This document shows, piece after piece, positions 29,601 through 46,197 of a DNA stretch of 64,000 nt (positions are counted from its first letter, which is position 1; each line of letters begins with the position of its first letter). The notes under the pieces are model-generated. The model saw only the letters and a program-made list of their open reading frames with translations. It was not told the origin of the DNA and made no database searches. Origin of the DNA: Planotetraspora kaengkrachanensis (lineage in GTDB: Bacteria > Actinomycetota > Actinomycetes > Streptosporangiales > Streptosporangiaceae); the NCBI RefSeq assembly GCF_016862895.1, contig NZ_BONV01000021.1, positions 122,784 through 186,783 of the forward strand. Reading direction: 5' to 3'. A program made the position numbers and the translations under genes.

Positions 29601-29740
29601 GCGTCGAGCACGGTCGTCTTTCCTGCGCCCGTCGCACCGTGGATCAGGAACAGCCCCGCCTCGCCGAGCGCGTCGAAGTCGACCTCCTCGCTGCCCGGGA
29701 ACGACCCGAACGCCTCCAGCCGCAACCGGTGCAGTCTCAC
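26621..29740 (-). CDS. sbcC: SbcC (Rad50-like) exonuclease subunit
   Basis: A 1039-residue SMC-like ATPase of the SbcCD nuclease, which opens DNA hairpins and resects blocked ends. Walker A is LIHGATGAGKTTVLDAVCYA at about residue 36. Two very long Ala/Glu/Arg-rich coiled coils flank a zinc-hook CAVCGSADHP near the middle. The C-terminal lobe has the ABC signature LSGGESFITSLALALGLADV, Walker B TLFVDEGFGTLDEET and the D-loop/His switch in GIVSHVAEL. GTG at 29740 overlaps the sbcD stop by four bases (GTGA), so the two subunits are made together. Length and architecture are normal. Confidence 0.96.
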   Translation of the reverse strand: MRLHRLRLEAFGSFPGSEEVDFDALGEAGLFLIHGATGAGKTTVLDAVCYALYGRVPGRRDSARSLRCDHAPPGRGPAVTLEATIRGRRLRVTRSPAWMRSKQRGEGLVEEKAKVVVEEFTGTWIGRTTRADEAGHLIGELLGMNAEQFWQVAMLPQGDFASFLQADGDDRRRLLEKLFSVKIYTDMETWLADLRTRTGREQEELRRRADSVVDRMRGAAGADLPVPDDEPETVVGLAAAAFEREAAAWTASETRLRTARGRLQEGRELAERRRRHADALARREALDGAAEERADIQALLDDAARAAQVLPLIRQAEQRSEAAAKALRLAADATGRALPGEEPPGEEVLADMERERLDEIARVRQLLPEEIRLRQVRADLDAGRRRLAALEERGSALAGRLAALPEGLREAERLLDEARLAAAGVPGLLAARDGAARAAEVTRRSGVLEAELTALTEGEQAILAASRARPDELRAAAAGIAVLADAARLAQELGTAERVRHAAVDEAQAARDRLQEVRRARIEGMAAELAASLVEGEPCAVCGSADHPAPATPTGRALSGDDEQAAQDLFERTRLAREKAEARCAEWSSRLAGELRDQVALAGRRVAETTTALAALREEAGRLAGDPADLEEAERNLRHAEQAAARVPDLAGRAARLAAERDELAVLAQEAAIDAADTRARDEQLTADEGRLAALVDAARSDDASLAARLDRLTDEAALLREAGEATRAAVTAEGERRAALTRAAEAATGAGFAGIEHAGAAVRAPADLEAMAERLRFLDGEEVAVGRLLADPELVAAAAEPAPDLVTLDREHDQADREHGARTSARDLARETATRLTALAAELRDALARHRPAAERHRLARRLAELAGGTSADNQWHMRLSAFVLGERLRQVVEAANERLGHMSSGRYLLQHDLRRAAGDRGRSGGGLGLRVLDAWTGVDRDPATLSGGESFITSLALALGLADVVTAEAGGAEIGTLFVDEGFGTLDEETLDDVLDILDGLREGGRAVGIVSHVAELRVRVPVQLRIVKGRAGSTLA

Positions 29741-30840
29741 AGGCTCTCCTTGATCCGGGAGGCCTCGACGGCCTCCCCGAGCAGGCGGATCTCCTCGTCG
29801 TCGGCCGGTTCGCCGCGGACCTCGCGGACGAAGTCGGCGGCCACGTCGATCTCGGCCCGCCCCGCGGCGGCGAGCGGCCGGGCGGCCGCTGCCGCCGGGC
29901 CGTCGGGTCTGAAGGCGAGCGCCAGCGTGTGCGGGAACCTGCGCCGCAGGCGGTCCATGGCCTCACGCGGACGGACCGGGTCGGTGAGGGTCACCTGGAG
30001 CCAGTGGCCCTCGCGGTCCGCGTGCCGGGGGTCGGTCAGCAGGTCGTCGAGACGGCCGGTCAACGTGCCTACGGGCCGGGGAACGGGCGCGAGGACGAAG
30101 TCGGCCCGGGCGGCGTCGAGATCCACCAGCCACGAGCCCTTGCGCTGGCCCGCCTCGGAGAAGGAGTAGGCGATCGGCGAGCCCGAGTAGCGCACGGTCT
30201 CGCTCATCACCTGACGCCCGTGCAGATGGCCGAGCGCCACGTAGTCGGCGCCCGCGAAGGCGGCCAGCGGCACGTGGGACACCCCGCCCACGCTGATGTC
30301 CCGCTCGCTGTCGCTCGCCTGTCCGCCGGTGACGAACGCGTGGGCGAGCACCACCTTCCGCCGCCCGGGGCGGTCGGCGCGGATCCGCTCCATGGCATGG
30401 GTGATCGCGGCCGTGTGGCTGCGCTCGGCCAGCTCCCAGGGACCCCTGACCAGCTCGGGCTCCAGGTAGGGGATGCCGTAGAAGGCCACGTCGCCGATGA
30501 CGACCGGCTCCCACGCCCGGGCCGGGTCGGTCCGCAGGTGCACGCGCTCCATGAGGCCGGCGCCGAAGCCGAGCCGTACAGAGGAGTCGTGGTTTCCGCT
30601 GATCAGAACCGTGTGCACGCCCTCCGCCTTCAGCCGGCCGAGCGCCTCGTCGCACAGCGCGACCGCGTCGACCGGCGGCAGGGCCCGGTCGTAGACGTCG
30701 CCGGAGACCACCACGACGTCGACCCGCTCGGCCCTGACGGTCTCGACGAGATGCTCCACGAAGGCGGCCTGGGCGCCGAGCAGGCTCTCCCGGTGGAACG
30801 ACCGGCCGAGATGCCAGTCGGAAGTGTGGAGGACACGCAT
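29737..30840 (-). CDS. sbcD: SbcD (Mre11-like) nuclease subunit
   Basis: A 367-residue metallophosphoesterase that supplies the nuclease site to SbcC. The five phosphoesterase motifs are clear: VLHTSDWHLGR, VVVSGDVYDRALPP, VLISGNHDSSVRLG, VVLAHAFVTGG and YVALGHLHGRQ, with all Mn-binding Asp/His/Asn positions. The C-terminal capping domain follows (residues 260-367). ATG at 30840 is the natural start because the first motif begins at residue 3. It is the first gene of the pair; the divergent hydrolase starts 126 bp away. Confidence 0.96.
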   Translation of the reverse strand: MRVLHTSDWHLGRSFHRESLLGAQAAFVEHLVETVRAERVDVVVVSGDVYDRALPPVDAVALCDEALGRLKAEGVHTVLISGNHDSSVRLGFGAGLMERVHLRTDPARAWEPVVIGDVAFYGIPYLEPELVRGPWELAERSHTAAITHAMERIRADRPGRRKVVLAHAFVTGGQASDSERDISVGGVSHVPLAAFAGADYVALGHLHGRQVMSETVRYSGSPIAYSFSEAGQRKGSWLVDLDAARADFVLAPVPRPVGTLTGRLDDLLTDPRHADREGHWLQVTLTDPVRPREAMDRLRRRFPHTLALAFRPDGPAAAAARPLAAAGRAEIDVAADFVREVRGEPADDEEIRLLGEAVEASRIKESL

Positions 30841-30966
30841 GTCGCAGGAAGCTAACAGTTCCCTCCGACAAATGCGGCCCCACTGATCCCAAGTCCATCC
30901 GGGCCATGGAACGAGTAATGACTTAGCCTGGATTCGGTACAGGATGATCAACCGGGGAGCGGCCTC

Positions 30967-32460
30967 ATGAACGTCGGCCGGAGCACGCTGGGTGTCGCCG
31001 CGGGTGTGCTGTTGGTCGTGCTGGCGGCGATCGGCTACGTGCTGTCCCCTCCCGCGTTCGATCCCCCGCTCCTGGCCGCGTCCCCGGAATTCAGCAGCCT
31101 GCCCGCCCAGCCGGCGTCGGAGACGAGGCCGGTCGACACCTCGACGCCGATCAGGACCGAGCACGTCAAGGTGGCCGCCAAGGACGAGACGCTGACCGCC
31201 ACGATCAGGTCGCCCATGTCGCCGGGCAGGCACCCGGCGATGGTGTTCGTCCAGGGCTCCGGATCGGGCAGCGGGTCGGAGTTCACCACGCAGTCGGAGT
31301 GGCTCGCCCGGGCGGGCGTCGTGACCCTCTCCTATGACAAACGCACGGTGGGCTACGACTTCCGGCAGCGCGACTTCTCGCTGCTCGCCGACGACGCGCT
31401 GCGCATGGTGCACACGCTCCTGCAACGGCCCGACGTCGACCCCTCGAGGACCGGGCTGTGGGGCGTCAGCGAGGGCGGCTGGGTGGTCCCGATCGCCGCG
31501 GACTCCAGTGACGTGGCGTACGTGGTCCTGGTGTCGTCGCCGAACGTCTCACCCCTGCGGCAGGTCGCCTGGGCGCTGAACGAGCAGCTGGTCCGTCTGC
31601 ACGCCCCGACCGGCGTGCGTGACCTGCTGACCCGCGCGATGGGCGGCGTGGGCTTCGACTTCCTGCGCCACGACGGCGTGCCCGCGCTCGAGGGCATGAA
31701 GCAGCCGATCCTCGCCCTGTACGGCACGACCGACCCCTCCATCCCCTTCGTGGAGAGCACCGAGACGCTGACCCGCGCGCTGCAGAAGGCCGGGAACCCC
31801 GACTACACGATCCGTTTCCTCCCGGGCGCCGACCACGCCATGAGGATCTCCGGCGGCCCGTTCGTCCCCGACTACCTGCCCACCCTGGCGAACTGGATCA
31901 AGGACCTTCCCGCCACGGCCAAGCCGGCGGTCCAGATCGCGGGCGCGACCCCCGTGCAGCGGTTCGAGGCGAGCGACGTCCCCGCCGCCCCGTGGTACGG
32001 CGGCGGCACGATCCTGTGGCTGACCATCTGCCTGGCCGCCGTCGGCTACGTCGCGGCGCCGGTCACCGAGATGGTCGTCCGCATCAGGGGGCGGGACACG
32101 CGCCTTCAGGCCCCGGTGGTCGACATCTGGCCCGCCGTCCGGCGCCGGCTGCGCCGGATGGCGTGGACCGGCCTCGGAGAGCTGGCGGCCGTCCTCGCTT
32201 TCATCACGCTGATCGTGCTGTTCTCGGTCAACCAGGCGGGGGCATGGCCGGCCGTACAGGCCGGATGGCTGGTCGTGCGGCTGCTCGCGGTCGTGATGCT
32301 CCTGCAGGAGGTCGCCGTGGTCGCGGCGGTGCTGAGCGGCCTGCGCGACGGCTGGCAGCCGAGCCGCTGGCAGAAGAACGTCCTGATCGGCGTCCTCGGC
32401 GGCACGGGCCTGCTGTTGCTGACCGCCGCCTACTTCGGGTTGTACGCCTTCCCCTGGTAG
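30967..32460 (+). CDS. Membrane-anchored alpha/beta hydrolase with C-terminal helices
   Basis: A 497-residue protein. An N-terminal helix (LGVAAGVLLVVLAAIGYVLS) leads to an extracytoplasmic alpha/beta hydrolase: AMVFVQGSGSGSGSEF forms the oxyanion loop, the nucleophile elbow is GLWGVSEGGWVVPIA, the acid is in LYGTTDPSIPFVES and the His in PGADHAMRISGG. The last 150 residues hold four hydrophobic helices, an addition not found in soluble homologues. GGGGAG lies before ATG at 30967. The enzyme acts on an unknown ester or peptide at the membrane surface. Its 3' end overlaps the convergent hydrolase gene by 31 bp. Confidence 0.8.
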   Translation: MNVGRSTLGVAAGVLLVVLAAIGYVLSPPAFDPPLLAASPEFSSLPAQPASETRPVDTSTPIRTEHVKVAAKDETLTATIRSPMSPGRHPAMVFVQGSGSGSGSEFTTQSEWLARAGVVTLSYDKRTVGYDFRQRDFSLLADDALRMVHTLLQRPDVDPSRTGLWGVSEGGWVVPIAADSSDVAYVVLVSSPNVSPLRQVAWALNEQLVRLHAPTGVRDLLTRAMGGVGFDFLRHDGVPALEGMKQPILALYGTTDPSIPFVESTETLTRALQKAGNPDYTIRFLPGADHAMRISGGPFVPDYLPTLANWIKDLPATAKPAVQIAGATPVQRFEASDVPAAPWYGGGTILWLTICLAAVGYVAAPVTEMVVRIRGRDTRLQAPVVDIWPAVRRRLRRMAWTGLGELAAVLAFITLIVLFSVNQAGAWPAVQAGWLVVRLLAVVMLLQEVAVVAAVLSGLRDGWQPSRWQKNVLIGVLGGTGLLLLTAAYFGLYAFPW

Positions 32461-34921: not shown

Positions 34922-35917
34922 TCAGACCCGGAAGGACTCCCTGGCCAGCCGGCGCACCCGCGCCTCGTCGACGGTGTGGCCGAGGCCCGGCTGGGTGAGC
35001 GGGATCGCGACGACCCCGCCGGAGGCACCGACCGGGGGCACGACGACCTGGGCGCTCTGCGGCGGCTCGGCCACGGCGCTCGGGAGCGTGCATCCCGGCA
35101 GGCTGGCCACGGCCACGGTCGCGGCGCGGGCCAGCCCCGCGCCGAGGCCGCCCATGCAGACGATGTCCCATCCGGCCTCCACCGCCCGGTCGTGCGCGGC
35201 GCGCACGGCGCCGAGCGAACCGAACCGCGACGGGCGCAGCAGCAGGGCGCGCCCCGCGTGCACGCCGACCGCCTCGTCCAGTTCGGCCACCGAGTGCACC
35301 TCGACCGCCACGGGCGCGTTCACCCGGTCCTGCAGCTCCGCGCTGGTCAGCAGATCGGCGAACGGCCGCTGGATGGCCGCCAGGTCGTAGGAGTCGAGCG
35401 CCTCGAGCTGGGCGATGTCGGTGTAGGCGCCGCGGCCGTCCACCGCGATGGCCAGCCCCGGATACGCGGCCCGGACCGCGCGGACCGGCTCGACGTCCCA
35501 GCCCGGGTGCACGTCGATCGTGACGTGGGCGTAGCCCCCGCCGACGTGGCGGTTCACCCGGGCGACCATGCTCTCCAGCGAACGGTCGGCGGGCACCCGC
35601 ACGGTGGCGATCAGGGAGGTGCGGCTCCCGCCGAGGGCGTGGGAGAGCGGGACTCCGCTCATCCGCCCCCACAGGTCCCAGCAGGCCATGTCGCCGGCCG
35701 CGCCTCCGGGGATCTCCCCCAGTTCGGACGGGTGCTCCCAGTCGACGCCGATCAGGGCGGGCAGCGCCTTCTCGAGCGGGTCGTCGTTCGACGGCTGGAC
35801 GATCTCGCCCCAGCCGGTCATGCCGCCGTAGTCGGTGAACTTGACCAGAGCGCTCTCAGGGCGCCTGCCGTACGGCAGGGTCATCCTGAAGATCTCGAGC
35901 TCCCGAACGCGCGGCAA
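34922..35917 (-). CDS. Enolase-superfamily protein with altered catalytic residues
   Basis: A 331-residue protein with the overall layout of mandelate racemase/muconate-lactonising or o-succinylbenzoate synthase enzymes: an N-terminal capping domain (ALVKFTDYGGMTGWGEIV), then a barrel. The catalytic positions are not canonical. Where the family has Lys-x-Lys, it reads HVTIDVHPG; the first metal Asp may survive in AVDGRGAY; the second metal Glu region reads AAIQRPFADL and the third VAVEVHSVAEL; the far Lys is Arg in LLLRPSRFGSLG. It may be a non-catalytic relative or use other chemistry. TTG at 35917 is taken as start because AAGGGGGAT precedes it. The MFS gene ends 38 bp upstream on the same strand. 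Confidence 0.75.
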   Translation of the reverse strand: MPRVRELEIFRMTLPYGRRPESALVKFTDYGGMTGWGEIVQPSNDDPLEKALPALIGVDWEHPSELGEIPGGAAGDMACWDLWGRMSGVPLSHALGGSRTSLIATVRVPADRSLESMVARVNRHVGGGYAHVTIDVHPGWDVEPVRAVRAAYPGLAIAVDGRGAYTDIAQLEALDSYDLAAIQRPFADLLTSAELQDRVNAPVAVEVHSVAELDEAVGVHAGRALLLRPSRFGSLGAVRAAHDRAVEAGWDIVCMGGLGAGLARAATVAVASLPGCTLPSAVAEPPQSAQVVVPPVGASGGVVAIPLTQPGLGHTVDEARVRRLARESFRV

Positions 35918-35955
35918 TGGAAATCCCCCTTGTTTCAGATCTCCATGGTGCCCGC

Positions 35956-37302
35956 TCAGCGGGTGTGGTCAAAACGCCCGGCGATGGCGGCGCCCGTTCC
36001 GGCCATCGCGGCGAGCAGCCCGAAGCACACCAGGTAGACGGCCACGGTGCCGCCGAAGCCCGCGAAGATCGCGCCAGTGGAGGCGACCGCGACGATCGAG
36101 AACGCGGACTCGCCGATCGACAGGGACGCGGAGTTGCGGCCCTCCTCGCCGGGCGCGGACAGCGCCAGGACGAGAACGGACAACGTCGGGTAGACGAGGC
36201 CGACGCCCAACCCGGCGACGACCCACCCCATGAACACGGCGACCACGGGGACGCCGTCGAAGACGGCCAGAGCGGTGAACGCGATGCCTGCCGCGATCAG
36301 CGCCGTCCCCACGCGGAGCACGACCGCCCTGCCGAACCTCCCGCGGCCCTGGATCCACGAGCCGAGGGACCACGCGAGCGCGCCCCCGGTGAGCGCGACG
36401 CCCGCCTGTGCCGGGCTGAACCCGCGCTCGGTCGTCAGGCTGAGCGGGACGAACACCTCGGTGGCGAAGAAGGCTCCGGCCGCCAGCCCGCGCAGCGCCA
36501 CGACGGTCGGCAGGCCGCGTGCCGCCCGCAGGGTCCCCGGGGGGAGCAGCCGGGGCAGCGCGAGCGCGAGGAGCGCCAGGCCGACGACCGCCAGCGACGA
36601 GACCGGCCACGCGGCGCCGCTGCCGTACTGGAGCAGGGCGGCTCCCACGGCGGCCACCGCGCCCCACGCGAGGGCCGGGGCGAAGTCCCGGTTCGCGTGC
36701 GTTTCCGCGGGCGGCGCGGTCCGCGCCGGGAGACCGCGCCACAGGACCAGCACCGCCGGCGCCGCCAGCACCGGCACGCCCAGGAACACCCAGCGCCAGC
36801 TCAGATGCTCGGCGACGACCCCGGTGATCGCGGGCCCGACCACCGAGGGCAGCACCCAGGCGGCGGCCAGCAGCGAGAACACCCTGGGATGCGACTGCGC
36901 CGGGTACACCTGGGCGACCAGCACGTAGAGGGCGACGTTGAACAGGCCGCCGCCGAGCCCCTGGACGAACCGGCCCGCGAGGAAGATCTCCATGGTGGGC
37001 GCCGTCCCGGCGACGAGGAGCCCGGCCATGAACGCGGCGATCCCGGTCCACAGGGGCGCGCGGGGGCCCTTCACGTCGCTCCAGCGCCCGCCGGCGACCG
37101 TCGCGATCACTCCCGCGGCCAGGCCGCCGCTGAAGGCCAGGCCGTACAGGTGGTAGCCGTCGAGCTCGCGGCCGACGACGGGCATCGCCGTCGCCACCGC
37201 CAGGTACTCGAAGGCCACCAGCGTGCTCAGCGCGACCATCCCGGCGCTCAGCGCGCGCAGTCGCGGGGAGAAGACGGCGGGCTCGGTCGACGTCGCGGTC
37301 AT
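35956..37302 (-). CDS. Major facilitator superfamily transporter
   Basis: A 448-residue transporter with 12 to 14 membrane helices. Typical motifs are the A loop GGRWSDVKGPRAPLW between helices 2 and 3, and the helix 4-5 stretch FLAGRFVQGLGGGLFNVALY, with GPAITGVVAEHLSWRWVFLG (motif C-like PxxGG region) after it. The pattern is that of the drug:H+ antiporter DHA2-like exporters. It starts ten bases after the VWA gene ends, without a strong ribosome-binding site, and may be the sixth member of that operon. Substrate unknown. Confidence 0.85.
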   Translation of the reverse strand: MTATSTEPAVFSPRLRALSAGMVALSTLVAFEYLAVATAMPVVGRELDGYHLYGLAFSGGLAAGVIATVAGGRWSDVKGPRAPLWTGIAAFMAGLLVAGTAPTMEIFLAGRFVQGLGGGLFNVALYVLVAQVYPAQSHPRVFSLLAAAWVLPSVVGPAITGVVAEHLSWRWVFLGVPVLAAPAVLVLWRGLPARTAPPAETHANRDFAPALAWGAVAAVGAALLQYGSGAAWPVSSLAVVGLALLALALPRLLPPGTLRAARGLPTVVALRGLAAGAFFATEVFVPLSLTTERGFSPAQAGVALTGGALAWSLGSWIQGRGRFGRAVVLRVGTALIAAGIAFTALAVFDGVPVVAVFMGWVVAGLGVGLVYPTLSVLVLALSAPGEEGRNSASLSIGESAFSIVAVASTGAIFAGFGGTVAVYLVCFGLLAAMAGTGAAIAGRFDHTR

Positions 37303-37312
37303 GTCATGGACC

Positions 37313-38443
37313 TTACGGACGCCCGTCCGCGGGTGCCATCAGACGTTGGTCGTAGGACCTCCGCTCGATCGCCGCGGCCATGAGCTCGGGGAACGCGTCG
37401 GGCGTGCAGGCGAACGCCGGCACCCCGAGCTGCGCGAGGGCCGCCGCGTTGTCGTGGTCGTACTGCGGCGTCCCCTCGTCGGACAGCGCGAGCAGCACGA
37501 TGACCTGGACGCCCGCGGCGGTCATCGCGGCCACCCGCCGCAACATCTCCTCACGCACACCGCCTTCGTACAGGTCGCTGATCAGCAGGAAGACAGTGTC
37601 GGCCGGCCTGGTGATCAGACCCTGGCAGTAGGCGATGGCGCGGTTGATGTCGGTGCCGCCGCCGAGCTGTGTGCCGAACAGCACCTCGACCGGATCGTGG
37701 AGCTGGTCGGTGAGGTCGACGACCGCGGTGTCGAACACGACGAGCGAGGTGCGCAGCGACCGCATCGAGGCGAGCACGGCGGCGAAGACGCTCGCGTAGA
37801 CCACCGAGGCCGCCATCGACCCGCTCTGGTCGACGCACACGACGACCTCCCGCTGGACGGCCTGCTGCCTGCGGCCGAAGCCCACGAGCCGGGACGGCAC
37901 CACCGTGTTCCGCTCGGGCAGGTAGTTCTTCAGGTTGGCCGCGATGGTGCGGTTCCAGTCGATGTCGGCCACCCGTCTCGGCCGGTGGGTCCTGGCCGAG
38001 CGGTCGAGCGCGCCGGTGACGGCGGCGCGGGTCTTCCGCTCGAGCCTGGCCTCGAGCTCGCTCACCACCTTCCTGACGACCGCCCTGGCGGACTCCCGCG
38101 CCTTGTCCGGCATCACCCGGTTGAGCGACAGCAGCGTCCCGACGAGATGCACGTCGGGCTCGACGGCCTCCAGCATCTCCGGCTCCAGGAGCAGCCTGGT
38201 CAGGTTGAGCCGCTCGATCGCGTCCTTCTGCATGATGTGGACGACGGTCGAGGGGAAGTACTCCCTGATGTCCCCCAGCCACCTCGCCACGCGGGGAGCG
38301 GAGGCGCCGAGACCGGCGTCACGCTCGTAGAGCGCCGACAGCGCGGCGTCCATGCCGGCGTCCGGGCCCTGCAGCGCGCCCTGGAGCGCGCCCTCCGACG
38401 CGCCGCCGAGCACCAGCCTCCACCGGCGTGCCCGCTCGTCCAT
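37313..38443 (-). CDS. VWA-domain protein of the MoxR/SWIM operon
   Basis: A 376-residue protein. Residues 1-195 are a helical region (GASEGALQGALQGPDAGMDA is low-complexity) with no recognised fold. The C-terminal half is a von Willebrand A domain with an intact metal site: VCVDQSGSM gives Asp205, Ser207 and Ser209, GGGTDI gives Thr264 and LISDLYEGG gives Asp290. VWA proteins paired with MoxR ATPases usually act as substrate or adaptor subunits in metal insertion, assembly or stress systems. The start codon overlaps the stop of the DUF5682 gene by one base. It is the last gene of the five-gene coupled block. Confidence 0.85.
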   Translation of the reverse strand: MDERARRWRLVLGGASEGALQGALQGPDAGMDAALSALYERDAGLGASAPRVARWLGDIREYFPSTVVHIMQKDAIERLNLTRLLLEPEMLEAVEPDVHLVGTLLSLNRVMPDKARESARAVVRKVVSELEARLERKTRAAVTGALDRSARTHRPRRVADIDWNRTIAANLKNYLPERNTVVPSRLVGFGRRQQAVQREVVVCVDQSGSMAASVVYASVFAAVLASMRSLRTSLVVFDTAVVDLTDQLHDPVEVLFGTQLGGGTDINRAIAYCQGLITRPADTVFLLISDLYEGGVREEMLRRVAAMTAAGVQVIVLLALSDEGTPQYDHDNAAALAQLGVPAFACTPDAFPELMAAAIERRSYDQRLMAPADGRP

Positions 38444-40596
38444 CACGTCCTCCCCAGGATTTGCAGAACGGTCAGTACGGCTCCCGCGGCCAGTTCGTCG
38501 TCGGCGTCGGACGCCTCGCGGGCGGGAGCAGGGGCGTCGGACCGCACGCGATCGCCGATCATGCGGCGCTCGGGCGGGGCGAAGGCCCCGAAGGTGCGCC
38601 GGAGCAGCGGCAGCACGTCGACGAACGCCTCCGGTGGCAGGCCCGTGAGCCAACCGTCCACGATCGCGAGCAGCCTCGGATCGTGGACCAGCAGCAGCCC
38701 GCCGCCGGAGAGGAAGCCCTCCATCCACGCGGCGGCCCGCTCGGGCGGGTTGCCGGACGACATCGCCCGGGCCATGCGGACGGACACGTCGTCCACGGTC
38801 GCGTCGGCGTCGAAGAGGATGCGGACGATCCGGCCCTCGATGATCCCCGGCAGCCCGGTGCGCCGGGCCAGGTTCGCGAGCGTCGACTGCCACAGGTCGC
38901 TCCCGAGCAGCCCTACCGCGCTGTGGACACCGTCGATCAGGGCGGTCATCTGCCGCGCCGAGTCGTCGTCGAGGCCGACCAGCGCGGGCGCCAGGCCGGC
39001 GCAGATCCGCGCGAGCAGCGAGTCGGTGATCGCCGCCAGACCGCCGCTCCCGCGCACGTCTCCGTAGCGCTGTGCCCGGACCAGGGCGGGAAGGGCCGCC
39101 ATGAGGTGGGAGACCTGCCCGTCGAGCGCGGCCTTGTCCTTGATCGCCTGCAGGATGCCGGGCAGGGCGGCGGTCAGGTCGGCGAGCAGGCACCGCTCGA
39201 CGATCGAGGTGAGGTCGGCCAGCGACGCGTCCTCCCGCGCCGCGAGCTCCCCCGCCCGGGCGGCCGCCGCGTCGTCGACGGTGACCCCCCAGGGGGCCGC
39301 CTCGATGAGCGCCACATCGAACTCCGGCCGCCACTCCAGCGTCCACGACTCCCTGAAGGTGCCCTTCCCGCGGGCCTGCCGCGTCGTGCCCCACGGCACG
39401 CCGATCATGTCCAGCCGGTGCAGAAGACGGCTCCGGCCGAGATCGAGCGGCTTGCGCAGGTCGAGGTCGTGCTCGCGGGCGAGCGCCTCGGGCTTGAGGC
39501 GCAGCCGCCGCTGCTCCTCCCGCAGGTGCCGTTGCAGCGGGACCATCGGGGTCGAGCCCGGCACGCCGCCGAGCCGCTCACCCACGACCATGCGGCGCTG
39601 GATCAGCTCGACGGGCAGGTCGTCGCCTTCGCACAGCACGGCCCTGGCGGCCTCCATCACCTCCGACAGCCCGGGGAGGGGCCGGCCGCGCAGGCCGGCC
39701 AGGCTCTGCGCCAGCCGTACGGACTCGATCACGTGGGCGGAGGAGACCGGCAGGCCCTCCTCGCGCAGGACCGCGGCTGCCCCGGCCAGCCAGCGCTCGA
39801 CTGGCCGGTCGGGGGCCGAGAACAGGTGGTCGTACCAGCCCGGTGAGGCGACGCCGGCGCCGTATCCGCTGCGGGCGGCGAGCCGCCCGTGCGTCCACGG
39901 CACCCACGTCATGTCGACCTTGACCTTGGGGATGCCGCGCAGCAGCCGCTCGTCACGCGCCGCGGGAGGCAGGCCGGTCAGCGCGGGAACGTGCCACGCG
40001 CCGCAGACGACGGCCACGGAGCCGAATCCGTCCTTGAGCGCGTTGCGCAGCGCCCTGCGCATGGCCGCCTCGCGCAGCGCCTCGGTTCCGGACGGCTCGT
40101 GCCCCTCGCGGAGGGCGGCCATCGCCTCGCCGACCGCGCGGAGGGTCCCGCCCTCTCCGCGATGCTCGACGACGTCGTCCCACCAGCGCTCGGGATCGTC
40201 ATATCCCGCGGCCCGCGCGAGCTCCCCGATGGGGTCCAGCCGTGCGGTCTCCTCCCCCGCCGGCTCCTCCTCGGGCAGGGCGAGGCTGTGGGCGGCGGGC
40301 AGATCGCAGAAGCGCACCTCGACACCCGCCTCCCGCGCGTAGGCGATCGCCTGCCATTCGGGTGAGAACACCGCGAACGGCCAGAACGCGGCGCGTCCCT
40401 GCGCGTGCGCCAGGAGCGCGACGGGGGGTTCCATGCCGGGGTCCCCCGCCAGCGCCACGAGGGGGTCGGCCTCCGGCGGCCCCTCGATCAGGACGACGTC
40501 GGGCCGCAGCCGTTCGAGTTCGGCGCGGACGGCCTTCGCCGAGCCGGGGCCGTGGTGCCGCACGCCCAGGATCGACGGCGCGGCCTCAGCCCGCAT
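38443..40596 (-). CDS. DUF5682 family protein, possibly TIKI/EreA-like hydrolase fold
   Basis: A 717-residue protein of the DUF5682 type. Near the N terminus ILGVRHHGPGSAKAVRAELE leads into VVLIEGPPEADPL, and around residues 196-205 there is VVCGAWHVPAL. A GxxH pair with an intervening conserved Glu is the active-site pattern of the EreA/ChaN/TraB (TIKI) hydrolase fold, which I infer but cannot prove. The rest is helical, Arg/Leu-rich, with repeated VERCLLADLTAALPGIL-like segments. ATG at 40596 overlaps the MoxR gene's end by 11 bp. It is the largest gene of the coupled block and has no signal peptide. Confidence 0.8.
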   Translation of the reverse strand: MRAEAAPSILGVRHHGPGSAKAVRAELERLRPDVVLIEGPPEADPLVALAGDPGMEPPVALLAHAQGRAAFWPFAVFSPEWQAIAYAREAGVEVRFCDLPAAHSLALPEEEPAGEETARLDPIGELARAAGYDDPERWWDDVVEHRGEGGTLRAVGEAMAALREGHEPSGTEALREAAMRRALRNALKDGFGSVAVVCGAWHVPALTGLPPAARDERLLRGIPKVKVDMTWVPWTHGRLAARSGYGAGVASPGWYDHLFSAPDRPVERWLAGAAAVLREEGLPVSSAHVIESVRLAQSLAGLRGRPLPGLSEVMEAARAVLCEGDDLPVELIQRRMVVGERLGGVPGSTPMVPLQRHLREEQRRLRLKPEALAREHDLDLRKPLDLGRSRLLHRLDMIGVPWGTTRQARGKGTFRESWTLEWRPEFDVALIEAAPWGVTVDDAAAARAGELAAREDASLADLTSIVERCLLADLTAALPGILQAIKDKAALDGQVSHLMAALPALVRAQRYGDVRGSGGLAAITDSLLARICAGLAPALVGLDDDSARQMTALIDGVHSAVGLLGSDLWQSTLANLARRTGLPGIIEGRIVRILFDADATVDDVSVRMARAMSSGNPPERAAAWMEGFLSGGGLLLVHDPRLLAIVDGWLTGLPPEAFVDVLPLLRRTFGAFAPPERRMIGDRVRSDAPAPAREASDADDELAAGAVLTVLQILGRT

Positions 40597-41653
40597 CGCG
40601 GCAGGCCCGGTAGAAGTCGCGCCAGTCGTCGCGGTCGCGGACCACGGCCTCGAGGTACTCCTGCCAGACCACCCGGTCGGCCACCGGGTCCTGGATGACC
40701 GCTCCGACGATCCCGCCCGCGATGTCGGCGGGGCGGAGCACCCCGTCGCCGAAGTGGGCCGCGAGGGCGATCCCACTGGTCACCACCGAGATCGCCTCGG
40801 CGGTGCTCAGCGTGCCGCTCGGCGACTTGACCTTGGTCCGTCCGTCCGTGGTCACTCCGGAGCGCAGCTCACGGAAGACGGTGACCACGCGGCGGATCTC
40901 CTCCATGCCGGCCGGGGTCTCCGGCAGTTCCAGCGAGCGGCCGAGCTGGGCCACGCGCCGGGACACGATCTCCACCTCCTCCTCGGCGCTCGCGGGCACG
41001 GGCAGCACGACGGTGTTGAAGCGCCTGCGCAGCGCGCTCGACAGGTCGTTGACGCCCCGGTCCCTGTCGTTGGCGGTGGCGATGACGTTGAACCCCTTGG
41101 TCGCCTGGACCTCCTCGTTGAGCTCCGGGATCGGCAGCGTCTTCTCGGACAGGACCGTGATCAGCGCGTCCTGGACGTCGGAGGGCATCCGGGTGAGCTC
41201 CTCCACCCGGGCCAGGCGTCCCTCGGCCATCGCCCTCATCACCGGGCTCGGCGTCAACGCGTCGCGGGAGGGGCCCTCCGCCAGGAGGCGCGCGTAGTTC
41301 CAGCCGTAGCGGACGGCCTCCTCGGCCGTGCCCGCCGTCCCCTGCACGAGCAGGGTCGAGTCACCGCTGACGGCGGCGGCCAGGTGCTCGGACAGCCAGG
41401 TCTTCGCGGTGCCGGGCACGCCGAGCAGGAGCAGCGCCCGGTCGGTGGCCAGGGTGGCCACCGCGACCTCGACGATGCGGCGCGGGCCGATGTACTTGGG
41501 CGTGATCTGGTCGCCGTCCCCGAGGATGTACGTGGTCACCGCCCACGGGGAGAGCCGCCAGCCTGGCGGCCGCGGCCGGTCGTCGCCCTTGGCGAGGATG
41601 GCCAGTTCCTCGGCGTAGAGGTCTTCCGCGTGGGGGCGCAGGACGGTGGTCAC
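40586..41653 (-). CDS. MoxR-family AAA+ ATPase
   Basis: A 355-residue AAA+ ATPase. Walker A is LLLGVPGTAKTWLSEHLAAA at residues 76-95. The Walker B region RLARVEELTRMPSDVQDALI has Glu-Glu instead of the usual Asp-Glu. Sensor 1 is NVIATANDRDRGVNDLSSAL and the arginine finger is in RRRFNTVVLP. MoxR ATPases remodel partner proteins, usually a VWA protein, and both neighbours fit. The GTG at 41653 is chosen over an upstream ATG because GGAGCT precedes it and it sits in a GTGA overlap with the DUF5691 stop. Coupled to DUF5682 downstream. Confidence 0.9.
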   Translation of the reverse strand: MTTVLRPHAEDLYAEELAILAKGDDRPRPPGWRLSPWAVTTYILGDGDQITPKYIGPRRIVEVAVATLATDRALLLLGVPGTAKTWLSEHLAAAVSGDSTLLVQGTAGTAEEAVRYGWNYARLLAEGPSRDALTPSPVMRAMAEGRLARVEELTRMPSDVQDALITVLSEKTLPIPELNEEVQATKGFNVIATANDRDRGVNDLSSALRRRFNTVVLPVPASAEEEVEIVSRRVAQLGRSLELPETPAGMEEIRRVVTVFRELRSGVTTDGRTKVKSPSGTLSTAEAISVVTSGIALAAHFGDGVLRPADIAGGIVGAVIQDPVADRVVWQEYLEAVVRDRDDWRDFYRACRDAG

Positions 41654-43002
41654 GAAAGCTCCTTCGACATGTCGTGCCGGAACCGCAGGGTGGCGGCCAG
41701 CTCGGGGATCTCCTGGACGTGGCCGTGCATGGCCGGGTCGAGCCGTTCGCCCGCCAGCCGGATCAGCTCGCCGGCGTTCCACGGCTGCGTCCCGGACATC
41801 TCCACGATCTTCTTGAGTACGGCCTTGGCCAGGCGTGGACCCCAGGGCCTGGCCACACCGCCCAACATCATGATCATCTGCCCGTCGACGGGGTGCCGTG
41901 CGACGAGCTCGGCGGCCCTGGCCGACTGCTCCTCAGGCGGGAGCACGGCCAGCAAGTCGGTCAGCGGCTCGACCTCGAACAGGGCGCGGGCCCATCGCGG
42001 GTCGTGCTGGAGGATGGCCGCGCGGGTCCAGCCCATCGCGACCTCCCTGGCCCAGTCGCCGATCTTCGACCGGACGACGTCTTCCGGGCTCCGCCCCAGA
42101 TGAACGGTCCAGAAGGCCAGGGGCGTGCGGGCGATCACCTGCTGCAGCCACCAGCCGCGCTGCGCCGTGCCCGCGGGGGGCCGGGGCCGCACGCCGTCAC
42201 GCTCCATCGTGCTGTCGCACGCCTTCGGCGGCTCCGCGCGCAGACCGCCGCCGTCCACGACGAGGAGCCTGGCGGACCGTTCGGTCATGCGCCGGGCCAG
42301 CCGCGACTCGGGCAGCCGGGTCAGCAGGTCGGCGGCGGCCTGGCGCACCTCGCGCCTGCGGTCGTCGAGTGCCGCCTCCAGGAACGGCTCGTCGTCCATG
42401 CCCAGCCCGTCCGACAGAACGAGCACGAACGCGGCCCGGTCTTCTGGCGTCTCCTTGTCCCAGCCCTGTTCGAGCAGCTCGCGAGCTTGGCCGGGGTCTG
42501 CCGCGCGCGACGCGGTGAGGTACGCCCTCCGGTCGCCGCTGGTGCCGAACTCCCACACGTCGCCAGAGGGCACGCCTGCCGCCTCGGCCAGGAGATATTG
42601 CCACGAGGAGTTGAGCTCGGCGAGCCACCGGCCGCGTGCCCCGCTGAGGGCGCCCAGGTGCGATCGGATCGACCTGTCGCGCGCGCCGAGATCGAGCAGC
42701 CCCGGGATCAGCTGGGCGGGGACCCGCACGCCGACCGCCGCGGCGGCTTCCAGCCACTCGGGCAGCAGCCGCGCCTGCTCGCCTCCCAGCATGCGGGCGA
42801 GCCTGTCGCCTGCCGCGCGGGAGGCGAGTGGACGCGTCTCCTCCATGGCGGGAGCGGGCGGGCGACTCGTGTGAGTCCGCCGGCCTGCTCGTGCGCGCAC
42901 CACCTCCACGGCCGCCTGCTCCAGCACCTCGCCGGGCGACGCGGAACGGCGGTCGGCGCCCACCAGGGCGGTGGAGACCAGGTCCTCCCATGACGTGCTC
43001 AC
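41650..43002 (-). CDS. DUF5691 family protein
   Basis: A 450-residue protein of the DUF5691 type, largely helical. The beginning WEDLVSTALVGADRR is characteristic. The middle (DDEPFLEAALDDRRREVRQA, AADLLTRLPESRLARRM) reads like HEAT-like repeats, which often act as protein scaffolds. The C-terminal part is WNAGELIRLAGERLDPAMHG. GTG at 43002 overlaps the SWIM gene's stop by four bases (GTGA). I know of no experimentally established function. Its strict neighbourhood with SWIM, MoxR, DUF5682 and VWA genes argues it is an obligate partner. Confidence 0.8.
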   Translation of the reverse strand: MSTSWEDLVSTALVGADRRSASPGEVLEQAAVEVVRARAGRRTHTSRPPAPAMEETRPLASRAAGDRLARMLGGEQARLLPEWLEAAAAVGVRVPAQLIPGLLDLGARDRSIRSHLGALSGARGRWLAELNSSWQYLLAEAAGVPSGDVWEFGTSGDRRAYLTASRAADPGQARELLEQGWDKETPEDRAAFVLVLSDGLGMDDEPFLEAALDDRRREVRQAAADLLTRLPESRLARRMTERSARLLVVDGGGLRAEPPKACDSTMERDGVRPRPPAGTAQRGWWLQQVIARTPLAFWTVHLGRSPEDVVRSKIGDWAREVAMGWTRAAILQHDPRWARALFEVEPLTDLLAVLPPEEQSARAAELVARHPVDGQMIMMLGGVARPWGPRLAKAVLKKIVEMSGTQPWNAGELIRLAGERLDPAMHGHVQEIPELAATLRFRHDMSKELS

Positions 43003-44309
43003 AGCCGGACCACCTGGCCCTCCTCGTCCCATACCGTCAGCGGGCGCGACCCGCGTGGCGTCCACTCGGCGGCGACCGTCACCGGGCGCCCGCCGGACAC
43101 GGCAAGCAGCCGCCAGGGCACTCCGCCCTCCGGATGCAGCGGGAGCCCGTTCCCTTCCTCGTCGGCGAGACTCCCGGTGGCGGGGATCACGCCTTCGAGG
43201 ACGACGGGCCAGGAGTCGGCCCAGGGGTCGCCGGTAAGCACGCCGGCGATCCGGCCGGGCACCTGGGAGAGCTCCGTTCCGGCCGGGCGGCCGGAGGCCG
43301 CCGGCCCGTGCCGCTCCGCGACGACCGCGCGCAGCGGCGACGCCCCGGGGTAGTACGCCAGGCTGGCGTCGACGGCGGTGCCGGTGACGAGCGACGCGTC
43401 GAGTGCCTGGCCGATCGGCGCGAACGACAACACCAGCGCGACGCGGCCCGTCGCCCTGCCCTGCAGCCAGATCCGGCGCGCGACCAGCCGGTCCTGCTCC
43501 TCGTCCCTGCCGCCGATCACGTCCCATTCGTCCCTGACCCAGGGCGTGGCGAGGACGTCCTCCCTGGTGATCGGGAATCCGACCCGCGAGCGCACGGTCT
43601 CGGCGAGGCCCGCGGGAAGCTCGGCCGTCCGCCGATGCGCGACGGCGAGCAGATGGATCAAGGCGTACTCCCCCAGCAGGAGACCGGGCCAGTCCTCCTC
43701 ACGCAGCACGCGGGACAGCCGGGACACCGAACCGGCGACTCCTGGCGCCTGCGCGTCCACGAGGCGCCTGCCGAGCTCGTCCCAGTCGGCGAGGCCGGTC
43801 TGCCGCGCGCCCGCGATCCCCTGCGCGATCTGGTCGGTCAGCCAGCGCTCCAGCTCGGACAGACCGGCCGTCACCCTGGTCTCCCGCTGGGCGGAACCGC
43901 CCGAGGAGCGGGCCGCCTTCGCGCGCTCGCTCGGCTCCTGCCTGTCTCGCTTCTCCTGCTTCTCGGCCCGGCTGCGCCGTTGCTCGAGCCATTCGGCCAC
44001 CCACCCGGCGGGCTCTCCGCCGTCGGGCACCCCGTCTGACGCCCACAGCAGCAGGAGCCCCAGCGCGTGCTTGCAGGGGAACTTCCTGCTCGGGCAACTG
44101 CACTTGTAGGCCGGTTCGGACAGGTCCACACACGCCCGGTACGGCGTGGCGCCGCTGCCCTTGCATTCGCCCCAGACCACGTCGGGGAGGGCGCCGCTGC
44201 CCGACCACTTCCCCGGCGCGCTCACGCCGGCCGCCGCCTTCTGCGACGCCGCGTCGGGGGCCAGAGAGAGCACCTGGTCCCGGCTCCACCGTTCGATCAC
44301 GCGCCGCAC
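42999..44309 (-). CDS. SWIM zinc-finger protein, first gene of the MoxR/VWA operon
   Basis: A 436-residue protein. The SWIM motif is YKCSCPSRKFPCKHALGLLL, giving Cys70, Cys72, Cys79 and His81, the CxCx(n)CxH zinc site that binds DNA or protein. It follows a short N-terminal region, VIERWSRDQVLSLAPDAASQ, and a charged linker (AEKQEKRDRQEPSERAKAAR) comes after. The C-terminal 220 residues are a mixed domain of unknown fold. Starts at GTG 44309 or 44300. Its GTGA overlap with the DUF5691 gene begins a run of five translationally coupled genes, suggesting a fixed stoichiometry. Confidence 0.85.
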   Translation of the reverse strand: MRRVIERWSRDQVLSLAPDAASQKAAAGVSAPGKWSGSGALPDVVWGECKGSGATPYRACVDLSEPAYKCSCPSRKFPCKHALGLLLLWASDGVPDGGEPAGWVAEWLEQRRSRAEKQEKRDRQEPSERAKAARSSGGSAQRETRVTAGLSELERWLTDQIAQGIAGARQTGLADWDELGRRLVDAQAPGVAGSVSRLSRVLREEDWPGLLLGEYALIHLLAVAHRRTAELPAGLAETVRSRVGFPITREDVLATPWVRDEWDVIGGRDEEQDRLVARRIWLQGRATGRVALVLSFAPIGQALDASLVTGTAVDASLAYYPGASPLRAVVAERHGPAASGRPAGTELSQVPGRIAGVLTGDPWADSWPVVLEGVIPATGSLADEEGNGLPLHPEGGVPWRLLAVSGGRPVTVAAEWTPRGSRPLTVWDEEGQVVRL

Positions 44310-44344
44310 ACTAGCCACACCCGCCGACAAATCCACTCGCCTCC

Positions 44345-44595
44345 TCACCCGGCGGCGATCACTTCGATCTCCACCGGCCAAGTGGCACCCGCCGCGCCTG
44401 TGGGGTCCAGCCCCATCGTCCCGGAGACGAACAGCAGCCGCCGCGCGTTGCGGACCTCCATCGAGTGCACGTAGTCACGGGTAGGGGCGTACACCCCGGT
44501 ACCGACGACCTCGGGCGTGTTCTCCAGCTGGCGGCTGGGTTGCCCGGGTCGATGCGCGCCGGGCCGTAACCCAGGAAGGGATATGGGCCGCACAA
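44345..44595 (-). pseudogene. Mosaic of gene fragments: nucleotide-sugar dehydrogenase plus RidA-like
   Basis: The first part, read from 44595, has FLGYGPARIDPGNPA and, after a frame change, LENTPEVVGTG. This matches a stretch of the intact nucleotide-sugar dehydrogenase at 58965-60224 (FLGYSPERIDPGN and LDNTPKVVSG), with clear DNA similarity too. The second part, YAPTRDYVHSMEVRNARRLL and FVSGTMGLDPTGAAG, is the N-terminal part of a RidA/YjgF enamine deaminase, cut off before its catalytic Arg. Neither product can be complete. The fragment lies just upstream of the SWIM gene, reading the same way. It fills most of a 328-bp gap and nothing else is seen there. Confidence 0.7.
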
Positions 44596-44637
44596 CGCCA
44601 GGGACAGCCCACTTATCCCTTGAGTTCCTGGACGCGG

Positions 44638-46197
44638 TCAGTCCATCCGGCGCGTGGGCAGCGGGTCGCAGCGGGCGTTGAGACAGGCCCCGGTCTCCAG
44701 GTCGAACTCGAGGTTGTGACCCAGACAGCGCACCTTCCCGTCCTCGACGATGCCTCCGATGGTCAGGTCGGCTCCCGCATGCGGGCAGTAGCGCGCGATC
44801 TCATACCTCTGACCGCCGTCCTCCACGACGATGCGCTCGGACGCGTCCCGCCCGGTTTCGTACGCCTCCACGGCGTCGAGTGCCACGGCGTCGGCGAACT
44901 TGAGGAAGGTGATCAGATAGCTGTTGTGGACGTCGGGGTCACGATCGAGCTCAACCCGTAGCGAGAGGAAGAGGTCCTCCCAGCCCGCGCGCTCGGTCAG
45001 TACAGCATCCACCCATCGTCCCGCGACCTTGATCTGGTATTCCACCCGGGCTGACGGGTCGGCCTGGACCACATCGATCCCCTCGGGGGTGATGCGCACG
45101 TCCCAGAGTCCTCCGGCGTCGCCGGTGACCTCGAACCGCACGGTCATGTCAATGCGCGTCAGGAAATACGGGCTCAGCATGCCCAGTTTGGCGAAATAGG
45201 CGGCGAACCGCTCATACAGATCGCCCTCCGGCTCCGGGTGCTCGTCCTTGAAGTGGCGGACCTGTTCCGCGCGCTCCTCCGCGTACCGCGCCAGATAGTC
45301 CTCGCGGCCCGTCGAGTAATCGAACTTGGCCGAGATCGGATCGCGCGTCACGGCACAGGTGTCCAGGTCGAGGACGTCGCCCGGCCTGAAGTCCGCCCAC
45401 CGCTGCCGTGGAAGGTGCTCGCTCAGCCATGCGACCGCCGCCTCGGCGTCGATGAAGGCTCCATCCTCTTGCCGAAGCACCCAGTTGTGCTGGAAGACCT
45501 CGGGATCGAGAAAACACGGCGGCCCGGCGAACGGAACCGCGAGCTCCGGGCCCGTCGCGCGCACGAGCCGCTGGACTCCGCGGAGCTTGGCGACGCGCTT
45601 CTCCATTGCTATCCGGCGGATCTCGTCCGGAGGGTAGGCGTAGCACATCGGGTGCCAGGACGCAGCCGCCGCCTGGAGCAGCATCAAATCGATGCGCCCG
45701 CCCACAAGATGCTTGGCTCGCCTCGCCTGTTCTGCGGTGAGCATGGCGTCGTTGCAGTTGAGCACCGCCCGCCCGGCCAGGGAGAACAGCAGTGCGGCGT
45801 CGTGGTAGCGCGGTGACGGCTCAGGAATCGCCATCACCCAGGCGCCGCTCTCTCCCAGCGGATACTTCTCCCACGGCTCCAGTTCCGTGATGGGGTTCGC
45901 GCAGACGCCCGATAGCAGATCGCGGAAGATCGGCGCCGGATACCTCGGGATCAGCACGCGGGTCCGGCGCGGCAGCCGCTCTATGACGTGCGGATCGAAG
46001 TGGTCCGCGTGCTCATGGGAGATCACCAGGTAGTCGACGTCGACCAGCCGCGTCAGGTCGAGATGATCGTTCCTCGGGTACGGGAACCATGACCCGAGAA
46101 AGGCTCCGGACGGCGAGAACCAGGGATCGACGAGAACCCTGAGACCTTCCGCTTCGAGCGCCATTCCCGCGTGTCCCAGAAAAGTGATGCCAGTCAC
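44638..46197 (-). CDS. MBL-fold protein with C-terminal Rieske [2Fe-2S] domain
   Basis: A 519-residue protein. Residues 1 to about 240 are a metallo-beta-lactamase fold: ITFLGHAGMALEAEGLRVLV and VISHEHADHFDPHVIERLPR, giving the HxHxDH site at 61-66. The middle region (RITPEGIDVVQADPSARVEY, LSLRVELDRDPDVHNSYLIT) resembles a SCP2-like/alkyl-sulfatase-type domain. The C-terminal Rieske domain has Cys471, His473, Cys491 and His494 (ARYCPHAGADLTIGG, VRCLGHNLEFDLETGAC). MBL plus Rieske is the pairing seen in CMP-N-acetylneuraminate hydroxylases, but there the Rieske domain is N-terminal. GTG at 46197 has GAGGAG eight bases upstream. Function unknown; the neighbours are gene fragments. Confidence 0.8.
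   Translation of the reverse strand: MTGITFLGHAGMALEAEGLRVLVDPWFSPSGAFLGSWFPYPRNDHLDLTRLVDVDYLVISHEHADHFDPHVIERLPRRTRVLIPRYPAPIFRDLLSGVCANPITELEPWEKYPLGESGAWVMAIPEPSPRYHDAALLFSLAGRAVLNCNDAMLTAEQARRAKHLVGGRIDLMLLQAAAASWHPMCYAYPPDEIRRIAMEKRVAKLRGVQRLVRATGPELAVPFAGPPCFLDPEVFQHNWVLRQEDGAFIDAEAAVAWLSEHLPRQRWADFRPGDVLDLDTCAVTRDPISAKFDYSTGREDYLARYAEERAEQVRHFKDEHPEPEGDLYERFAAYFAKLGMLSPYFLTRIDMTVRFEVTGDAGGLWDVRITPEGIDVVQADPSARVEYQIKVAGRWVDAVLTERAGWEDLFLSLRVELDRDPDVHNSYLITFLKFADAVALDAVEAYETGRDASERIVVEDGGQRYEIARYCPHAGADLTIGGIVEDGKVRCLGHNLEFDLETGACLNARCDPLPTRRMD

Follow-up and report, generated by a model that had tools for sequence, protein, structure and literature searches.

Gene content and layout of the locus

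A row of five minus-strand genes was analysed in a 64,000-nucleotide stretch of the Planotetraspora kaengkrachanensis genome (contig NZ_BONV01000021.1, positions 122,784 to 186,783; hereafter the window). These genes encode, in order, a SWIM zinc-finger protein, a DUF5691 protein, a MoxR AAA+ ATPase, a DUF5682 protein and a von Willebrand factor A (VWA) protein with a metal ion-dependent adhesion site (MIDAS), and are preceded by a match to a DNA-damage promoter motif (Table 1). Successive overlaps of 4, 4, 11 and 1 bp, described in an initial annotation of the window, were confirmed. Pfam assigned the products to SWIM, DUF5691, AAA_5 (MoxR), DUF5682 and VWA_CoxE, while no NCBIfam model reached its cut-off for any of the five. 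A sigma-70 scan of positions 35800-44800 returned neither a promoter-like nor a terminator-like site, and the best-matching named relatives of the DUF5682 protein were those of Planotetraspora.

Table 1. Features of the five-gene unit, in window coordinates
Feature	Position	Strand	Remarks
RecA-NDp (PafBC-type) promoter motif	44308..44330	-	TTGTCGGCG-N8-TAGTGT, 11/12 scored positions; ends 7 nt before GTG 44300
SWIM zinc-finger protein, CxCx6CxH motif	42999..44300	-	start 44300 preferred over 44309
DUF5691, predicted HEAT/ARM-like helical protein	41650..43002	-	
MoxR AAA+ ATPase	40586..41653	-	42% identity to E. coli YehL
DUF5682	38443..40596	-	predicted TIKI/Ere-fold N-terminal domain and helical-repeat C-terminal part; 27% identity to YehM
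VWA (CoxE-like) protein with MIDAS	37313..38443	-	36% identity to YehP

Conservation of gene order and distribution

Gene order was compared among named loci for the best 80 of at least 487 confirmed DUF5682 relatives, all from Actinobacteria and 1.6 Mb in total; evidence from other phyla came from E. coli and from plasmid-collection records, of which 36 matched and 11 were used, and gene types were assigned with profiles built for this analysis. DUF5682 was flanked by MoxR before and VWA after at all 71 named loci with room on both sides. The complete order SWIM-DUF5691-MoxR-DUF5682-VWA was present on one strand at 39/80 loci, and at 32/80, from Streptomyces and relatives, SWIM-DUF5691 was divergent from MoxR-DUF5682-VWA on the opposite strand. 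Eight of the remaining nine loci were cut by a contig end and the other (L100) contained no DUF5691 match. Among 198 actinobacterial genomes, DUF5682 was found in 17 and DUF5691 above the cut-off in 16, all of which were among those 17; three further DUF5691 matches, below the cut-off, were in genomes without DUF5682.

Beyond Actinobacteria, the five-gene order was kept in Deinococcus and Rhizobium, in a Methylobacterium record where it was recognised by profile, in Methylosinus with a broken VWA, and in Hymenobacter, where DUF5691 and a SWIM-profile match occupied one 1009-aa frame in which no SWIM was recognised by Pfam. A single 1255-aa frame of Streptomyces atratus joined DUF5682 to VWA, and this fusion, together with that of Hymenobacter, points to physical partnership between the products. 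A Fusobacterium locus (L152) had the order SWIM-X-MoxR-DUF5682-VWA, where protein X matched no Pfam family at E <= 0.01. These comparisons support the claim, made in the initial annotation, that the five genes form one conserved unit.

A search for genes that occur singly or in unrelated order left that claim standing but qualified it, the five-gene set being one variant of a wider system. In a second type DUF4132 replaces DUF5691. This type, whose order is variable, was found in E. coli, Iodobacter, Sinorhizobium, Allorhizobium and one further locus (L046), none of which contained a detectable DUF5691, and the seventeenth DUF5682 genome of the 198 (G124) also belonged to it. Judged by gene content, the system has a core of MoxR-DUF5682-VWA and SWIM, to which either DUF5691 or DUF4132 is added.

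Several other arrangements were noted. Five loci (type C: L040-L042, L044 and L151) had a DUF4132-MoxR-DUF5682/VWA-SWIM arrangement and two (type D: L047 and L048) had VWA-MoxR with a distant DUF5682. In Actinomadura sp. NBRC 104425, weak DUF4132-profile matches lay a few kb past the DUF5691-type unit (L063, 17792-21096, minus strand), possibly placing both partner types near each other. A small extra gene with no Pfam match separated MoxR from DUF5682 in Deinococcus (L147, 9747-9983) and Hymenobacter (L148, 9362-9973). On Methylosinus plasmid pOB3b3 (L149), VWA was fragmented across frames and unannotated while the other four genes were intact, and insertion sequence elements and a VapC toxin-antitoxin pair lay near the unit. 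Up to four DUF5682 matches per genome were noted in one genus (g3). The downstream major facilitator superfamily (MFS) and enolase-like genes, which had been suggested as further members, were dropped, such genes being present within the fetched flanks of only 3/80 related loci; local read-through from VWA into the MFS gene, which starts at 37302, 10 nt past the VWA stop, is possible.

The gene set is near-core in Streptomyces and E. coli. DUF5682 was present in 122/150 genomes of the family of Planotetraspora and in 97/101 genomes of genus g3, which we take to be Streptomyces, and yehLMPQ, the E. coli set, was present at 80% or greater query coverage in 5162/5426 E. coli genomes. The latter genes are non-essential, since the reduced E. 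coli strain DGF-298, as described in excerpts of PMC10652928, lacks yehL-yehQ.

This distribution bears on the suggestion that the unit serves in conflict with invaders. Kaur et al. (2020) describe, in passages of PMC7159879, conflict systems centred on MoxR and vWA with peptidase or other effector domains, and these ternary systems resemble the present unit in combining MoxR and vWA with a third, often enzymatic, protein; in addition, the E. coli-type set of Iodobacter adjoins type I restriction genes. As well as the near-core distribution, a search of PADLOC-DB 2.0.0 argued against such a role, none of the five proteins being matched at E <= 0.001, as did a single-sequence query of viral contigs, which returned no relative. 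The third component of the ternary systems is given in the same passages as VMAP, an inactive STAND, FtsH or a beta-propeller, and among these a Pfam scan of the five proteins (E <= 0.001; Pfam model coverage of such components unchecked) returned bpMoxR alone, at 24.7 bits and under its cut-off of 27. The terms yeh, SWIM, WGR, DUF5682 and DUF4132 are absent from the main text of PMC7159879 on ternary systems. An anti-invader system of this kind was considered highly improbable, and conflict was set aside as a role.

A DNA-damage promoter motif upstream of the unit

The RecA-NDp promoter has the consensus tTGTCRgtg-8nt-TannnT (PMC5656591) and, according to excerpts of PMC6789036, is the promoter used by PafBC. 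Its occurrence was counted in the named loci only, further Streptomyces rows being able to duplicate these (L029 and L103, for instance, represent a single contig). At divergent loci, the SWIM side matched at 12/12 scored positions in 31/34 cases and at 11/12 or more in 34/34, and the MoxR side at 11/12 or more in 32/34. The word ACTGACAA was found on either strand in 33/33 divergent intergenic regions, compared with at most 11 regions for any 8-mer in ten shuffles. At single operons, matches of at least 10/12 preceded SWIM in 23/38 cases but the internal MoxR in only 3/44 (Fisher P 1.6e-7), the region before SWIM scoring below 10/12 in the other 15/38. Among single operons that scored 9 or more, the motif ended 6-7 nt before the gene in 21/32, which fits a leaderless message. 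Altogether, the 80 loci contained 84 copies of the motif that matched perfectly or with one mismatch, and 81 of these were located no more than 300 nt upstream of SWIM or MoxR.

The motif was also associated with the other arrangements. Thus, a perfect copy lay 55 nt before the WGR-DUF4132 gene of L046, and at type C loci a copy lay before the gene that opens the set (DUF4132 in L041 and L151), perfect in L040, L042 and L044 and with one mismatch in L041 and L151. Of the type D loci, L047 had a perfect copy before a long frame, and in L048 the VWA frame lay approximately 1.7 kb downstream of a perfect copy. No motif was found at L045, where the upstream side was cut by a contig end. In three Streptomyces loci (L081, L086 and L090) the SWIM-MoxR intergenic region was unusually long, up to 1033 nt, and appeared by eye to contain an inserted small secreted-protein gene, with the RecA-NDp motif retained on each side.

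In the P. kaengkrachanensis genome the motif occurred 52 times with at most one mismatch, compared with 10 times for a reversed control pattern. The six perfect copies preceded uvrA, a helicase gene, a WYL regulator gene, two DUF222 genes and a PLP enzyme gene, and four copies with one mismatch preceded uvrB, an exonuclease/GIY-YIG gene, sbcD and an AlkZ-like glycosylase gene; of the 52 copies, the loci of 30 were retrieved and the genes behind these 10 examined, and the share of repair genes among the four one-mismatch cases is biased, since these were chosen after viewing N-termini. Several of the other copies had no convincing gene behind them, and recA was preceded by a copy with two mismatches. 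The SbcC-SbcD pair lies in the window (26621-31425, minus strand), approximately 13 kb from the five-gene unit, and has a motif of its own at 30849-30871 that scores 11/12 and is separated from the downstream sbcD start by 8 nt; the pair is predicted to be a second operon under DNA-damage control. PafC is encoded in the same genome (HTH_PafC, E 1e-40, with WYL and WCX) beside an adjoining WYL-WCX gene and with TatC nearby, as in the pafBC-tat gene order.

The match in motif and spacing, together with the presence of PafC and its WYL-WCX neighbour, makes the five-gene unit a predicted member of the PafBC (RecA-NDp) regulon of Actinobacteria. The near-perfect motifs found at one locus across Streptomyces contrast with the outcome of an initial search in S. 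venezuelae, in which, according to excerpts of PMC9380542, no conservation of the mycobacterial PafBC motif was reported. Of the roles put forward in the initial annotation, namely stress, metal handling or conflict, stress was retained and was narrowed by the motif to DNA damage.

CoxD and CoxE function in metal-cofactor insertion. A machine of this or a chelatase-like kind, with the SWIM protein as metal carrier, would account for the placement of the VWA protein in a CoxE-like Pfam family, and mutation of yehM in copper-evolved E. coli, mentioned in an excerpt of PMC12409786, gives a weak hint in the same direction. No metalloenzyme gene was common to the neighbourhoods looked at, however, and the class of the promoter motif points to DNA damage, so that metal insertion was judged very unlikely.

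A damage link of the set outside Actinobacteria is suggestive only. In D. radiodurans, depletion of DdrO raises dr2173 (WGR) and drA0165-drA0166 (DUF4132), and MolR is described as a member of the LexA regulon, both according to passages of PMC8533742; the LexA link proposed for E. coli comes from that single sentence on MolR. A DdrO-like palindrome with two mismatches was found before the SWIM gene of Deinococcus taeanensis and was equalled by 6/2000 shuffles. A LexA-like box before E. coli yehF had one mismatch, yet 95/2000 shuffles equalled it and it was rejected. The exact alphaproteobacterial LexA box was not found in L149, L150, L153, L155 or L156.

Predicted hydrolase domain of DUF5682 and conserved sites of the other proteins

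Residues ~1-250 of the DUF5682 protein were confidently modelled in a fold that resembles ChaN and erythromycin esterase, both of the TIKI/Ere superfamily. In 103 aligned sequences from several phyla, H14 was conserved in 102 and E38, R175 and H202 in all. These residues were equated with EreC H50, E78, R261 and H289 by motif order, and R175 and H202 also by a weak profile match, the Ere alignment used for the comparison covering 28/30 loci. Because the predicted N-terminal fold is TIKI/Ere-like and the H/E/R/H set is kept, DUF5682 is probably a hydrolase. In searches by sequence, nothing was returned from solved structures at E <= 1, and E. coli YbaP, of the TraB family, gave only E 0.09. Among comparison families, PF04187 (ChaN) was found in 0/119 and PF01963 (TraB) in only 1/149 actinobacterial genomes.

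The motor components appeared intact. Residues K84, E151, E152, N195, R210 and R211 of MoxR were kept in 11/11 rows, and the MIDAS residues of VWA were kept in 12/12 rows for D205, S207, S209 and D290 and in 10/12 for T264, so that the initial reading of the pair as a remodelling machine with an intact MIDAS remains the natural one. The CxCx6CxH residues of the SWIM protein were nearly invariant. The DUF5691 model (predicted local distance difference test score 91.2) resembled HEAT/ARM proteins; a sequence search of solved structures gave only weak matches, artificial alphaREP repeats included (best E 0.1), and the same search with VWA gave nothing at E <= 0.001.

These results also fit, in part, a maturation chaperone, damage-induced or housekeeping, in which MoxR and VWA would remodel one client while DUF5682 served as an adaptor or inactive enzyme. 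The intact MIDAS and MoxR motifs and the partly helical-repeat character of DUF5682 agree with such a role, and the characterised MoxR/VWA pairs NorQ-NorD, CbbQ-CbbO and RavA-ViaA act on a dedicated client, according to excerpts of PMC9976466 and PMC13036017. An adaptor, however, would have no need of the H/E/R/H set that is maintained across phyla, and no client gene accompanied the unit consistently; this explanation was regarded as rather unlikely.

Proposed function and comparison with known systems

On balance we favour, with some reserve, the explanation that the five genes behind the predicted RecA-NDp promoter encode one MoxR-VWA AAA+ machine that drives DUF5682 as a predicted TIKI/Ere-fold hydrolase. 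DNA damage would activate PafBC, and a probably leaderless mRNA would give rise to all five proteins, the gene overlaps suggesting co-translation. By homology with NorQ-NorD, a MoxR hexamer would carry the VWA protein seated on top, and the VWA MIDAS together with the C-terminal helices of DUF5682 would couple this motor to the hydrolase domain, where H14, E38, R175 and H202 would form the active site. The SWIM zinc finger and HEAT-like DUF5691 may provide a recognition arm, possibly touching nucleic acid or damaged complexes. From these elements we infer a role of the unit in damage survival.

SWIM (Shu2/SWS1) and WGR (PARP) domains are linked to DNA, and p97-SPRTN is a crosslink-clearing pair of eukaryotes. 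In a more specific version of the proposed function, which is speculative and on present evidence unlikely, the MoxR-VWA engine would be induced through PafBC (linked to SOS in E. coli) and directed by SWIM/HEAT or WGR/DUF4132 arms to protein complexes trapped on damaged DNA; it would pull on these or open them and hand them over to a peptidase or esterase of TIKI fold. If this were true, most Streptomyces and E. coli would possess a functional counterpart of p97-SPRTN. More generally, with a hydrolase domain and a DNA-damage promoter linked to it, a near-core set that had been uncharacterised becomes directly testable as a repair or damage-tolerance machine, and DUF5682 gains a predicted active site. 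MoxR/VWA machines are already known, but their YehL branch has so far been named without a function in the partial literature available, and a full-text literature search returned no paper with DUF5682 or DUF5691.

Compared with ChaN, erythromycin esterase and Tiki, DUF5682 shares the predicted fold and the GxxH, E, R and GxxH residues but carries about 450 additional helical residues and sits in a MoxR/VWA operon. In EreC a Glu lies three positions ahead of the first His (E47xxH50), and DUF5682 has Gly in its place.

With NorQ-NorD and RavA-ViaA the unit shares the pairing of a MoxR AAA+ protein with a MIDAS-bearing VWA protein, and the motor principle is likely the same. In NorQ-NorD a finger of the VWA protein is lodged in the pore of MoxR, and the client is presumed to be bound through the MIDAS (passages of PMC9976466 and PMC13036017), and by analogy both features would be expected here. 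In contrast, DUF5682, SWIM and DUF5691 are not named as partners in those passages. The BLAST match between VWA and ViaA was limited to the VWA core (27% of 177), and MoxR gave no extended BLAST match to RavA, the best local match being of 25 residues (E 0.072).

The closest likeness was to YehL-YehM-YehP-YehQ of E. coli K-12 (NC_000913.3, 2204596-2210944), which by sequence is a relative, or sister system, of the Planotetraspora unit. The YehL subfamily is reportedly defined by Snider and Houry (2006), who may already have noted the operon. MoxR was nearer to YehL (42% over 353 columns, E 3e-83) than to RavA, the identities of DUF5682 to YehM and of VWA to YehP were lower (Table 1), and in both systems DUF5682 adjoins MoxR, a CoxE-type VWA gene follows and a SWIM protein is encoded within the same operon. 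YehQ, encoded last in its operon, has the SWIM motif in common with the Planotetraspora SWIM protein but gave no BLAST match to it. The E. coli type differs further in that it is without DUF5691 and has DUF4132 (yehI) and WGR (yehF) genes upstream, none of which is among the Planotetraspora five, and in that its candidate regulator is LexA as opposed to PafBC. Because DUF5691 stands in place of DUF4132, the Planotetraspora unit is kept apart from the YehLMPQ subtype.
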